NCBI GenBank assembly: GCA_016291665.1
Contig: JAEEYE010000005.1
Coordinates: 49,479 to 113,478 of the forward strand
Reading direction: 5' to 3'
Length of the DNA stretch: 64,000 bases
DNA from: Oxalobacter sp.
Lineage (GTDB): Bacteria; Pseudomonadota; Gammaproteobacteria; Burkholderiales; Burkholderiaceae_D
Shown here: in pieces, positions 41,691-61,700 of the stretch
How positions within the stretch are numbered: position 1 is the first letter of the stretch
Layout: each line of letters opens with the position of its first letter
The notes under the pieces: model-generated
Told to the model about the DNA's origin: nothing
The model's input: the letters and a program-made list of their open reading frames with translations, nothing else
Databases searched by the model: none
Made by a program: the position numbers and the translations under genes

Positions 41691-44546
41691 TTAACCGGTA
41701 TTGCGCATGCCGGCGGAAATACCGTTGATGGTCAGGTGGATACCCCGTGTTGCTCTAGCATCCATGTTTTCAGGATTGCCGCCGGGGTTACGGTGGCGCT
41801 TGATTAGCTCAACCTGGAGATAGTTCAGCGGGTCGATGTAGGCCAACCGATCTTTCAATGCGCGGGCTAGGTTCGGGTTATTGACCAAGCGGTCTTTTTC
41901 CTGCGTGATGATTTCAAAGCTGTTCAATGTCCGCTTGTGTTCCTCGCAGATGGCAGAGAACACGGTTTCACGCAGGTTGGCATCCTTGACAAGTTCCGAA
42001 TAGCTGTAGGCGATTGTCAGGTCGGTCTTGGCCAGGACCATGTCCATGTTCGATAGGGTAGATTCAAAGAATGGCCACTTCTGGTACATTTCACGCAGCA
42101 GGGCAATCTTGCGACCGTGTTTTTCCAAGTCTTTTTCGTTGAGCCACTCGGTAATCGCAGAGCCGAAGCCATACCAGCCCGGCAGCAGCACGCGGCATTG
42201 TGCCCAGGAAAAGCTCCAAGGAATGGCTCTTAAGTCTTCAATCCGGCGTGTTTTCTTGCGTGATGATGGGCGGGATCCGATATTTAATGCAGCAATCTCA
42301 GTAATTGGCGTTGATTCAAAGAAATAGTCCGAGAATCCTGGTGTTTCATAAACAAGTTTGCAGTAGGCTTTGTAGGCTAGTTCGGAGATTTCCTCAAAGG
42401 CATCTTCAAAGGCCTGGCGTTTGGCCAGGTGCTCTGGCGATGGATCTTCAGGCACCAAACTGGCTTCCAGAGTGGATGCCACCAGGAGTTCGAGGTTGCG
42501 GTTGCCGATCTCAGGGTCAGAGAATTTGGATGCAATCATTTCTCCTTGTTCGGTCAACCGGATTTGTCCGTTGACGGTACCTCGTGGTTGCGCAAGGATT
42601 GCTTCGTAGGTTGGTCCACCGCCGCGGCCGACAGTACCGCCCCTGCCGTGGAAAAGCCGCAGGGTAATCTTCAGTTCCCTGAAGAGCTTGACCAGTTGGC
42701 GTTCGGCTTTATAAAGCTCCCAGTTGGATGTCGTGTAGCCTCCGTCCTTGTTCGAGTCGGAGTACCCTAACATGATTTCCTGAAGGTCACTCTGGCCTTC
42801 AATAAGTTTCCTGACGAACGGGATTTCCAAAACAGTACGCATGATGGTGTCGCATTGGCGCAAGTCAGGAATAGTTTCGAATAGGGGGATTGGGTGTAGG
42901 TCGAGTTCTGGTGTGTCCCAATCGTGGATTGCATCATGCGTGCCAGACTTTTTAGGATGCAAAAGGCCGACTTCGCGTTGGAGCACGATGAGTTCTAAGA
43001 TGTCTGAAACGGTTTCAGTATGTGAAATGATGTAGTTCGTGATGGCGCGTTCACCGTATTTTTCACGGATTTCACGTGCTGTCCTCAGGATTTTGAGTTC
43101 GTTGGCGGTTTCTTCTGAATAGGCTGCATAAGGGGTGTAGAGAAGCCTTGGTTTGCCAAGTTCTTCAATCAAGAGGGCGATTTTTTCATCCTCAGAGAGG
43201 GATGCATAATCAGGTGTTACACGTGCGGTCGCTAAAATTTCGGTTAAGATGCGCTCGTGAACGTCCGAGCTCTGTCGCATGTCGAGAGAGGCTAGGTGGA
43301 AACCGAAGATGTCAGCGGCTGCCTTAATGGCGCCCAAGCGGATGCGGACAATCAATGCCCCAGCGTTCTTGGTCAATGAGTCGACCAGGATTTGTAGGTG
43401 TGCGGCAAACTCGTCGGACGAGGTATACGGCTCATCTTCGCCGACTTCTTCGCGGGGTAAGGCAGTCATCCCAAATTTTCGTGCGGTTGCTGCCAAGCGG
43501 TTGTAGATATAAATCAGTGCGCGGCGGTAAGGCTCGTCAACCCGGTGTTCGGATTCGTCAGAAGACATCTCTGCAAGTGTCAAGACAGCGGGGTCGACGT
43601 GGTTTAGCAGTGCTGAAACAGCCAGTTCACGACCTAATTCATGGACTTCATGCAGGTAAAAATCCATGATGACATGGGATTGGCGTTCCAAGGCTTGGAG
43701 CATCGTCTGTGCATTGACGTTCGGGTTACCGTCTCGGTCACCACCAATCCAACTGCCCATCTGCAGGTAACGTGCTTCAGAACCTGGGGATGTGACACCG
43801 TCTTCTTTTTCTGGGTAGCGTTCTTCCAGTTCTTCTTGGATAGCCTGGTAAAGGGCAGGCAGTTCCCGTAAGAAGGTCAACTGGTAGTAGGAGAGGGCGT
43901 TATCAATTTCGTCCACGACGGACAGCCGCGAGTTGCGTAGCATACGGGTCTGCCAGAGCGACGAGATGTGTGCCTTGATCATTTCCGTATTATGTTTGTA
44001 CTCGCGAGGCGTCAGGTTTGAATCACGCTGTGTCAGTAAACGCGATATTTCGCGTTCTTTGTCTAAAGTGCTCTTACGTTGGATTTCCGTTGGGTGTGCG
44101 GTTAATACAGGGCAGATGAATGTGCGTTTTTCGAGCATCCGTTTAATGTCAGCTCCAGGAACGCCCGCCTTGTCTAGGAGGTTCAGTACATAAGTCATGC
44201 TGCCTTTAGGCGGTTCATCACCTGCAATGCGTCCATTGCGGTAAGCAAGATTGTCGTGTTTGTCGACAGCTAGGTTTGCTAGGTGTGAGAAATACGAAAA
44301 AGCGCGAACGACAGAAATTGCGTGGTTGCGCCCTAAATATTTGAGCAGGTTCCTTAAGCTGTCTGATGCAACTGGATTCGGAGAACGTTTAAGGTTCACC
44401 GCCATGCGCCTGACTTGTTCGACGAGGTTGAAAACATCGTCACCTTCTTGTTCGCGGATGACCTCACCTAAAAGGCGTCCAAGCATCCGGATGTCTTCCC
44501 TTTCCGGTGATTCCTGTAGTGAGGAGTGGTGTTCGTTAGTATCCAT
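41691..44546 (-). CDS. ppc: Phosphoenolpyruvate carboxylase
   Basis: VLTAHPTEIQRKSTLDKEREI, WIGGDRDGNPNV, LGYSDSNKDGGYTTSNWELYKAE, LFHGRGGTVGRGGGPTYEAI, C-terminal GISAGMRNTG. Confidence 0.97.
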   Translation of the reverse strand: MDTNEHHSSLQESPEREDIRMLGRLLGEVIREQEGDDVFNLVEQVRRMAVNLKRSPNPVASDSLRNLLKYLGRNHAISVVRAFSYFSHLANLAVDKHDNLAYRNGRIAGDEPPKGSMTYVLNLLDKAGVPGADIKRMLEKRTFICPVLTAHPTEIQRKSTLDKEREISRLLTQRDSNLTPREYKHNTEMIKAHISSLWQTRMLRNSRLSVVDEIDNALSYYQLTFLRELPALYQAIQEELEERYPEKEDGVTSPGSEARYLQMGSWIGGDRDGNPNVNAQTMLQALERQSHVIMDFYLHEVHELGRELAVSALLNHVDPAVLTLAEMSSDESEHRVDEPYRRALIYIYNRLAATARKFGMTALPREEVGEDEPYTSSDEFAAHLQILVDSLTKNAGALIVRIRLGAIKAAADIFGFHLASLDMRQSSDVHERILTEILATARVTPDYASLSEDEKIALLIEELGKPRLLYTPYAAYSEETANELKILRTAREIREKYGERAITNYIISHTETVSDILELIVLQREVGLLHPKKSGTHDAIHDWDTPELDLHPIPLFETIPDLRQCDTIMRTVLEIPFVRKLIEGQSDLQEIMLGYSDSNKDGGYTTSNWELYKAERQLVKLFRELKITLRLFHGRGGTVGRGGGPTYEAILAQPRGTVNGQIRLTEQGEMIASKFSDPEIGNRNLELLVASTLEASLVPEDPSPEHLAKRQAFEDAFEEISELAYKAYCKLVYETPGFSDYFFESTPITEIAALNIGSRPSSRKKTRRIEDLRAIPWSFSWAQCRVLLPGWYGFGSAITEWLNEKDLEKHGRKIALLREMYQKWPFFESTLSNMDMVLAKTDLTIAYSYSELVKDANLRETVFSAICEEHKRTLNSFEIITQEKDRLVNNPNLARALKDRLAYIDPLNYLQVELIKRHRNPGGNPENMDARATRGIHLTINGISAGMRNTG

Positions 44547-58800: not shown

Positions 58801-60048
58801 TTGAGCCGAAATGGACAACGCCGGGTCGTCGTTACCGGGCTGGGCTGTATTTCGCCAGTGGGTAATACTGTTGCAGAAATGTGGGATGCTGTCATCAATG
58901 GGAAGTCAGGCATTGCTCTGATTACCAAATTTGATGCATCTGCTTTCAGCACCAAGTTTGCAGGAGAAGTTAAAGGCTTCGAGCTGGAAAAATATATCCC
59001 AGGCAAAGAATCACGCCATATGGATACCTTCATCCACTATGGGATGGCAGCAGGTATCCAGGCAATTGAAGACAGTGGCCTTGTTGTCACTGAAGAAAAT
59101 GCCGACCGTATCGGTGTCAACATCGGTTCGGGTATCGGTGGCTTGCCGATGATTGAAAAGACCCATGCAGATATGGAAAAACGTGGTCCACGCCGCATTA
59201 GCCCATTCTTTGTACCGTCTTCAATCATCAACATGACGTCAGGTTTTCTGTCTATCCGCTATGGATTGCGTGGGCCTAACTTGTCATGTGTGACCGCTTG
59301 TTCGACAGGTCTGCATTCTATCGGTTATGCAGCACGTACCATTGTGTACGGTGATGCAGATGTTATGATTGCAGGCGGCGCAGAATCGACAGTCTCCCCA
59401 TTGGGTATTGGAGGTTTTGCAGCTGCAAGAGCCCTTTCTTCCCGTAATGATGATCCTGCAACGGCTTCCCGCCCTTGGGATAGGGATCGTGATGGGTTTG
59501 TCATGGGTGAAGGTGCAGGTGTTCTTGTGCTGGAAGAGTATGAACATGCAAAAGCACGGGGTGCCAAGATTTATGCAGAACTCTGCGGTTTTGGTATGAG
59601 TGCAGATGCACATCATATGACGGCTCCGTTGCAAGACGGTAGTGGTGCAAGTAAGTGTATGACCAATGCAATCAATGATGCTGGCATTAATCCTGATCAG
59701 GTCAACTACATCAATGCACACGGGACTTCCACGCCATTGGGTGACAAGGCAGAAACGATTGCTGTCAAGCGTTCTTTGGGAGCGGCTGCTTCAAAAGTTA
59801 TCATGAGTTCTTCCAAGTCCATGGTTGGTCACCTTCTTGGTGGTGCTGGTGGTCTGGAATCTGTGATTACTGTTCTGGCTGTTAAGAACCAGATTGCCCC
59901 TCCGACCATTAACATCTTCAATCAGGATCCTGACTGTGATCTGGATTACTGCGCGAATGCTGCTAGGGATGTACGCATTGATTATGCGTTGAAGAATTCC
60001 TTCGGTTTCGGCGGTACTAACAGCTCGCTTGTTTTCGGCAAGATTTAA
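58801..60048 (+). CDS. fabF: 3-oxoacyl-[ACP] synthase II (TTG start inferred)
   Basis: [47 protein letters not shown]-type active site ([19 protein letters not shown]), [24 protein letters not shown] before TTG 58801. Confidence 0.96.
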
Positions 60049-60063
60049 GAGTTGTTCCGAATG

Positions 60064-60103
60064 TAGGGCCGCATCCATGTTATGGAAGTGGCCCTATTTT
60101 TTT
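60064..60103 (+). terminator. Intrinsic terminator after fabF
   Basis: TAGGGCCGCATCCATGTTATGGAAGTGGCCCTATTTTTTTT. Confidence 0.85.
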
Positions 60104-60254
60104 TGCGTTCTTCCTTATTTTGCGAAGAATCCGCTACGCAAAATTGTAAGAATCTGTATTATCCCTTTGAACGCTTATCTGAAGCGTGTATTCTGATACA
60201 CGTTTTGAATGCCTGCGTCAGGCAGGCTTTTCTGTTTCTAAAAGGTGATAAATC

Positions 60255-61700
60255 ATGCATAAACCGAATGTACATCCTGTCAAGAAGCTTTGCTTGGCTG
60301 TTTGTTTAGCATTGTCGGTTGCCGGTATGGCGGCGCCGACACAGGTGCTTGCTGCACCACCTGTTGCAGTCAGTGGATTACCTGATCTAACAGGGCTTGT
60401 CGAGCAGGTTGCTCCTGCTGTTGTCAATATCAGGACGGTTGAGAAAATTCAGATTCATCGAGGGCTAAGTGATTTTGATGACTATTTCTTCCGTTTTTTC
60501 GGAATGCCTGTGCCTGGTATGCATCAACGCCACCGCCCTGAAACTGAAGAGCAGGTTCGTCAGGGTATGGGTTCTGGCTTTATTATTTCAGAGGATGGTT
60601 ACATCTTAACGAATCACCATGTGATTAATGGTGCAGACGAAGTATTTGTCCGTTTGATTGACAAGCGTGAGTTCAAAGCCAAAGTGATTGGATCTGATAA
60701 GCGTACTGATGTAGCGCTTTTAAAGGTTAAGGGGACGAATTTGCCGGTTTTGAAGACGGGACGTTCTGCTGACATCAAGGCTGGTCAGTGGGTATTGGCA
60801 ATTGGTTCTCCCTTTAAGCTCGATAACACCGTAACAGCCGGTATTATTTCTGCTACGGCGCGTGATACTGGCGACTACCTGCCGCTGATACAGACAGATG
60901 TGGCGGTTAATCCAGGGAATTCTGGCGGACCGCTTATCAATATGAATGGTGAAGCTATTGGTATCAATTCCCAGATTTTCTCGCGTTCTGGTGGTTATAT
61001 GGGTATTTCCTTTGCTGTGCCGATTGATGAGGCTTTGCAGGTTGCAGATCAGCTTAAAAAGACGGGTAAAGTCAAACGCGGGCAGATTGGTGTGCATGTG
61101 AGCGAAATCAACGAAGAAACCGCGAAAGCGATGAACCTCCCAAACAGTCGTGGGATTTTAGTTGCACATGTGGAAGAAGGTTCTCCAGCAGAGAAGGCTG
61201 GGCTCGAAGCGGGTGATGTTATTCTGAAGTACAACGGTCACGAAGTTGAATCGGCTTCTGAATTGTCGCGTCTCGTTGGTGAAACGCCTGTCGGAACTGA
61301 TGCATCTGTTACAGTTTGGCGAAAAGGTACAAATCATACCCTTTCTGTGCGTCCTAAGGTTATGGAAGGGGTAAAAGGGGATAGTAAGGCTGCTGTGAAA
61401 GCGGTTGCTAATAACAAGTCAGAAAAAGTCCTTGGCGTGACTGTTGATGAACTCGGCGATGAACAGAAGAAGTCTTTGGGTGTTAAGCATGGAGTTGTGA
61501 TTACATCAGCTAAAAAACAGGCTCTTTCAGTTGGTTTGCGGCGTGGTGATGTTATTGTCCGCATGAATAATGCAGATGTGACAGATGTTGCGTCGTTCCA
61601 GCAGGCTGTTTCGTCTCTTGAGCGGAATAAGATGGTGATTTTGATGGTCGTCCGCTCTGGTATGGTCACATATGTTGCCTTCCAACCTTCTGTTGATTGA
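60255..61700 (+). CDS. Do-type serine protease (DegP/MucD/DegQ-like), trypsin domain plus two PDZ domains
   Basis: [60 protein letters not shown], two PDZ repeats. Confidence 0.94.

Follow-up and report, generated by a model that had tools for sequence, protein, structure and literature searches.

The question raised by this locus is what became of the sigma-E module that would be expected between fabF and the gene of the Do periplasmic protease. Many proteobacteria rely on sigma-E as their main envelope-stress regulator, and E. coli requires it for viability. The RpoE-RseA-RseB module belongs to the ECF02 group and is represented by rpoE-rseABC in E. coli and by the sigE locus in Burkholderia and Bordetella. 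The window (the whole stretch of DNA analyzed, 64,000 nucleotides) comes from an Oxalobacter assembly (G000) of 1.97 Mb in 44 contigs, which is 91.5% complete. A sequence-only reading of the window had proposed that the sigma-E/anti-sigma module is gone from its place after fabF, that the protease gene has stayed, and that, with rpoS and ihfA, three global regulators were shed in one coherent regulatory streamlining. The junction has the following features.

58801-60048, + strand: fabF (beta-ketoacyl-ACP synthase II; TIGR03150, E 1.7e-197), the left edge of the site
60049-60254, + strand: interval of 206 bp between fabF and the Do gene, from which rpoE, rseA and a cptA-like gene were lost, by comparison with relatives
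60063-60104, + strand: retained hairpin resembling an intrinsic terminator, 3' of fabF (fold -23.4 kcal/mol, T8 tail)
60138-60254, + strand: leader of the Do protease gene, homologous to the leaders in G004 and G010 (alignment score above all 2000 shuffles for both sisters)
60167-60194, + strand: weak sigma-70-like promoter candidate, TTGAAC-N16-TATTCT (8/12), below the threshold of the consensus scan
60211-60237, + strand: short GC hairpin followed by a U tract, just 5' of the Do ribosome-binding site
60255-61700, + strand: Do/HtrA periplasmic serine protease with trypsin-like domain and PDZ domains (TIGR02037, PF13365, PF13180)

On the + strand of the window the genes are ordered fabG, acpP, fabF, Do protease, ndk and rlmN, and the order fabG-acpP-fabF is also kept in relatives. 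The coordinates given earlier for the gap are exact: fabF ends at 60048, the Do gene starts at 60255, and none of rpoE, rseA or rseB lies in the 206 bp between them. The RpoE, RseA and RseB proteins of relatives, used as tblastn queries against the 206 bp and the whole window, gave no significant remnant. Retention of the protease was likewise confirmed, with a score of 485.6 bits against TIGR02037 (curated cut-off 416.2). Compared with known Do/HtrA proteases (MucD/DegP/DegQ), it is a member of the Do subfamily that keeps its place beside ndk and rlmN but no longer follows rpoE, and it is the sole HtrA match found in a search of the G000 genome. Its N-terminus is hydrophobic and resembles a signal peptide by hydropathy, and the protein is predicted to be periplasmic. 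The closest named matches, at 83-84% identity, are from two Oxalobacter MAGs.

The genus sample consisted of 13 Oxalobacter genomes (G000 and 12 congeners), and a family census covered 146 genomes selected at a completeness of at least 90%. The two nearest relatives of G000 are G010 (99% complete) and G004 (87%); all three genomes of this clade are draft assemblies. An RpoE protein query gave no match at E<=1 in any of the three, and the RpoE family TIGR02939 was not found in G000 or G010. The RseA_N domain was absent from G000, G004 and G010, and RseB (PF03888) from all 13 Oxalobacter genomes; RseP is present (TIGR00054 over cut-off in G000, on contig C31, and in G004 and G010). In a Sigma70_r2 census at E<=10, each genome of the three gave only two proteins. 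The first is a long ORF of 836-986 aa, taken as RpoD by size alone, and the second is RpoH, as judged from the family scan and linkage to ftsY (405 bits against TIGR02392 in G010); the ftsY-linked rpoH of G000 is cut by a contig end. The sigma-E/anti-sigma module is thus gone from the genome as assembled, and not from the fabF-Do site alone, and no rpoE-rseAB cluster was found elsewhere in it. This bears out the earlier statement in so far as rpoE and rseA are concerned. RseB was lost earlier, throughout the genus, and RseA too had been truncated to a membrane-free form before the deletion (see below).

That the module sits in an unassembled part of the genome is highly improbable. G000 is fragmented and incomplete, and its rpoH is truncated at a contig end; against an artefact, fabF and Do are contiguous without rpoE between them in three separate assemblies, and rpoE, rseA and the DegS-like gene described below are missing from the nearly complete G010 as well. 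Relocation of the module, or a takeover by an ECF sigma factor that had diverged or been acquired horizontally, is scarcely credible too. An additional FecI-like sigma factor (about 190-230 aa) does occur in some other Oxalobacter, and ihfA did move in G000, but the Sigma70_r2 census at E<=10 gave nothing beyond RpoH and the RpoD-sized protein in any of the three genomes. Loss of the module therefore stands as the preferred reading. RpoE was found in 140 of the 146 family genomes, so its absence is unusual within the family; the six genomes without it include G000 and G010. The other four are G034, G061, G031 and G055, two of which are near complete and small (2.2-2.3 Mb).

In a tree of FabF, FabG, RlmN and RseP, G000, G004 and G010 were grouped with a support of 100, and G003/G009/G011, which keep rpoE, were placed next to them. 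RseP of G000 is absent from the tree, and the placement of G000 rests on FabF, FabG and RlmN. Eight other Oxalobacter have RpoE orthologues (78-100% identity to the RpoE query) just downstream of fabF, and these are true RpoE proteins (TIGR02939, 303 bits). G002 and G008 (76% and 87% complete), possible cases of a second, independent loss, have fabF matches that are cut at or near contig ends. Since the other resolved Oxalobacter keep rpoE at the site, its loss is derived, not ancestral, and belongs to one clade of three genomes (G000, G004 and G010). In G002 the place directly before Do that rpoE-rseA would be expected to occupy holds a VapBC-like toxin-antitoxin pair, and the contig ends just beyond.

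The canonical order, in which full-length RseA and RseB are encoded between fabF and Do, was found in the outgroups of the same family (G013, G014 and G016), where the locus reads fabF, a cptA/ygfX-like gene, rpoE, full rseA with membrane helix, rseB and Do. The order assumed by the sequence-only reading holds for these outgroups and not for Oxalobacter. Most rpoE-bearing Oxalobacter have fabF, a cptA-like gene, rpoE, a short rseA and Do, without rseB, and their fabF-Do interval measures 1.45-2.9 kb. In G004 and G010 a cptA-like ORF lies between fabF and Do in an interval of 690-695 bp, compared with 206 bp in the window. In relatives this CptA/YgfX-like ORF (PF07254, an assignment tested in two Oxalobacter copies) thus follows fabF and precedes either rpoE or Do; the window species has lost it by deletion. 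In Oxalobacter the short RseA measures about 96-112 aa. RseA_N scored over its cut-off in G001, G003, G005, G006, G007 and G012 and below it in G011, and no transmembrane segment was detected by hydropathy in the proteins of G001, G003, G005, G006, G007 and G011. G009 has also lost rseA, beside an intact rpoE. In G001/G012 rpoE and short rseA are kept, Do is gone from the locus and ndk comes next, the reverse of the loss seen in the window. G003 has two Do-like genes in tandem, with an unrelated ORF of 318 aa between short rseA and the first of them.

A second, membrane-anchored HtrA is present in the other ten Oxalobacter and absent from exactly G000, G004 and G010. By its resemblance it would be a DegS-type site-1 protease, and it is called DegS-like here; a transmembrane segment was recognized in the G011 copy, and the G012 copy is cut by a contig end. 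Its absence fits the loss of a whole signaling branch. Because the three genomes share one branch of the tree, the DegS-like gene and rpoE-rseA count as lost together only once in evolution, and one such case cannot show a functional link.

The flanks of the 206-bp interval were aligned separately to those of the sisters, with a score-based shuffle control (n=2000). The last 125 nt before Do aligned to both sisters better than 2000 of 2000 shuffles. The first 75 nt of the interval did so with G010, and the alignment to G004 was not significant. The Do leader of the window gave no match to the body of cptA. As both flanks align to one or both sisters and the cptA body is absent from G000, the deletion in G000 appears to have taken the cptA-like gene from between two retained flanks. 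The candidate -10 element is conserved in the sisters as TATTCT/TATCCT, and an analogous hairpin is found at the matching place before their Do ribosome-binding site. A perfect palindrome, CGTGTAT-TCTG-ATACACG, is possible in the Do leader of the window, followed by the GC hairpin with its U tract (60185-60237). The folding energy of the 93-nt end of the leader lies 3.5 SD below that of shuffles in the window species; no such deviation was seen in the sisters. Ahead of the candidate promoter, at 60146-60159, is a direct repeat, GTAAGAATCTGTAT, to which GTAAAAAACTGTTT in G004/G010 and GTAACATCCTGTAA in G005-G007 are similar. It is possibly a site of the OmpR/CpxR type, on weak evidence.

It had been supposed that some other promoter took over from a sigma-E promoter of the protease gene, and this was not borne out. 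Upstream of rpoE, most Oxalobacter that carry this gene have a conserved sigma-E-like autopromoter, GAACTTATTGCA...ACTCNAA (resembling GAACTT-N16-CTCNAA), and no sigma-E-like site was found before Do in the rpoE-bearing genomes. The sigma-E motif was not found at the site in the window, and its one match with 1 mismatch elsewhere in the window (at 43695; 1.37 expected) is no more than chance. A sigma-E-like string, GAAC-N19-TCTGA, does overlap the hexamers of the sigma-70 candidate (60167-60194). The Do promoter might accordingly have been rebuilt, a sigma-E promoter being converted to an overlapping sigma-70 promoter (TTGAAC/TATTCT over GAAC/TCTGA). The overlap is exact in G000, and no other strict match to the sigma-E-like string occurs on the + strand of the 64 kb, but the GAAC element is absent from G004 and G010, and in the relatives it is rpoE, not Do, that the sigma-E-like site precedes. 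A rebuilt promoter is very improbable, and conversion was rejected because the GAAC element is not conserved. Conservation of the leader with the sisters also argues against a newly recruited promoter; by our inference the leader of Do is older than the loss, and no sigma-E promoter would have had to be replaced by a new one. The consensus scan accepted no promoter on the + strand; transcription of Do probably starts within the leader of the gene and uses the housekeeping (or RpoH) holoenzyme.

The two companion absences have other histories. The ihfA gene is indeed missing between pheT and merR in the window (35908/36015), where the sister G004 has it, but it was wrongly counted among the missing regulators. 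An IhfA that is 64% identical to the sister's is encoded at C9:9403-9687 of G000, with a kinase-like ORF on one side and an EamA-like transporter on the other. It scores 116.5 against himA, slightly below the cut-off of 120.25 and well clear of the next matches, at 75; the gene has moved and is not lost. For rpoS the absence itself stands: no RpoS-like match was found among the Oxalobacter genomes examined, and the near complete G003 and G011 each have four members of the sigma-70 family, named RpoD, RpoH, RpoE and FecI-like from length and similarity. Being absent genus-wide, rpoS was lost in a separate event older than that in the window clade. The absences of rpoE, rpoS and ihfA thus have three different histories and do not represent one step.

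Adaptive streamlining, in which a stable gut niche would have favored a reduced set of regulators and rpoE, rpoS and ihfA would have been shed together, is therefore unlikely. The small genome of about 2 Mb, the few sigma factors and the fact that this clade has also lost the DegS-like protease would agree with it. On the other side, ihfA is retained elsewhere in G000, the genus-wide lack of rpoS and rseB places the losses on different branches, and G006 and G007, of equal size (1.9-2.0 Mb), keep rpoE. Neutral decay after truncation of RseA would account for the same data. The idea of three global regulators shed together in G000 is corrected by these results.

The loss of RseB extends beyond the genus. 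RseB (PF03888) is present in 91 of the 146 family genomes and missing from 55, among them every Oxalobacter sampled and several genera with RpoE retained. Many RpoE-keeping genomes of genera g4, g6, g21, g28 and g49 are without RseB and have an RseA that is short or membrane-free. Loci outside Oxalobacter were read in G015, G017 and 20 more genomes, picked mostly for missing RseB, and within this selection most loci with a readable RseA have a short or membrane-free RseA before Do, G015 and G017 among them. Exceptions include G043, which has a membrane helix, and the borderline G118; a simple scan showed no clear RseA at several loci. In G112, a family genome of 1.7 Mb, RseB is broken by a stop codon beside an intact rpoE (C9:29949-30273), a case of parallel decay. 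The truncation of membrane-anchored anti-sigma factors to soluble ones is a known route (review PMC8103513; survey PMC7406223). As in those cases, the short RseA of Oxalobacter and many other family members retains the sigma-binding domain and lacks the helix; here, however, it is RseA itself that is truncated, together with the loss of RseB, and the window clade is without even the stub. Sigma-E in these genera seems to be uncoupled from membrane proteolysis. If RseB is gone and RseA is soluble, cleavage by DegS/RseP could not free sigma-E, and a cytosolic signal would be needed. It may be suggested, tentatively and with less than even confidence, that in Oxalobacter and several genera of the Oxalobacteraceae sigma-E acts as an intracellular switch on a cytosolic signal, and that the window clade is an end point, at which the switch was no longer needed and was deleted. 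No description of sigma-E loss in Oxalobacter or of a short RseA in Oxalobacteraceae was found in the open-access literature searched.

Very probably the ancestor of the window clade (G000, G004 and G010) deleted the sigma-E module, and we infer a stepwise course. The ancestral locus of the family would have been fabF, a cptA/ygfX-like gene, rpoE, rseA with membrane helix, rseB and Do. Before or at the base of Oxalobacter, rseB would have been lost and rseA cut, in one or more truncations, to the N-terminal sigma-binding domain (about 100 aa, no helix), after which sigma-E should be uncoupled from periplasmic proteolysis of RseA. Deletion of rpoE, together with its autoregulatory promoter and whatever was left of rseA, and loss of the DegS-like HtrA would then have followed in the window-clade ancestor. 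Finally, in the window species only, deletion of the cptA-like gene would have joined the fabF terminator to the Do leader, with Do, RseP and RpoH remaining after the loss.

Measured against the known RpoE-RseA-RseB module, the window clade is without sigma factor, anti-sigma factor and RseB, whereas the rest of Oxalobacter is without RseB and has RseA as a membrane-free stub. The case is an ordinary lineage-specific loss of a known module in one clade of a genus of gut bacteria, well resolved and with graded intermediates, and a few other members of the family are also without RpoE. One genus and its outgroups together provide a natural series that consists of the canonical locus, an intermediate with a membrane-free anti-sigma factor, and full loss. 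With such a series one can ask by what steps a regulator ceases to be needed and what controls the periplasmic proteases afterwards.
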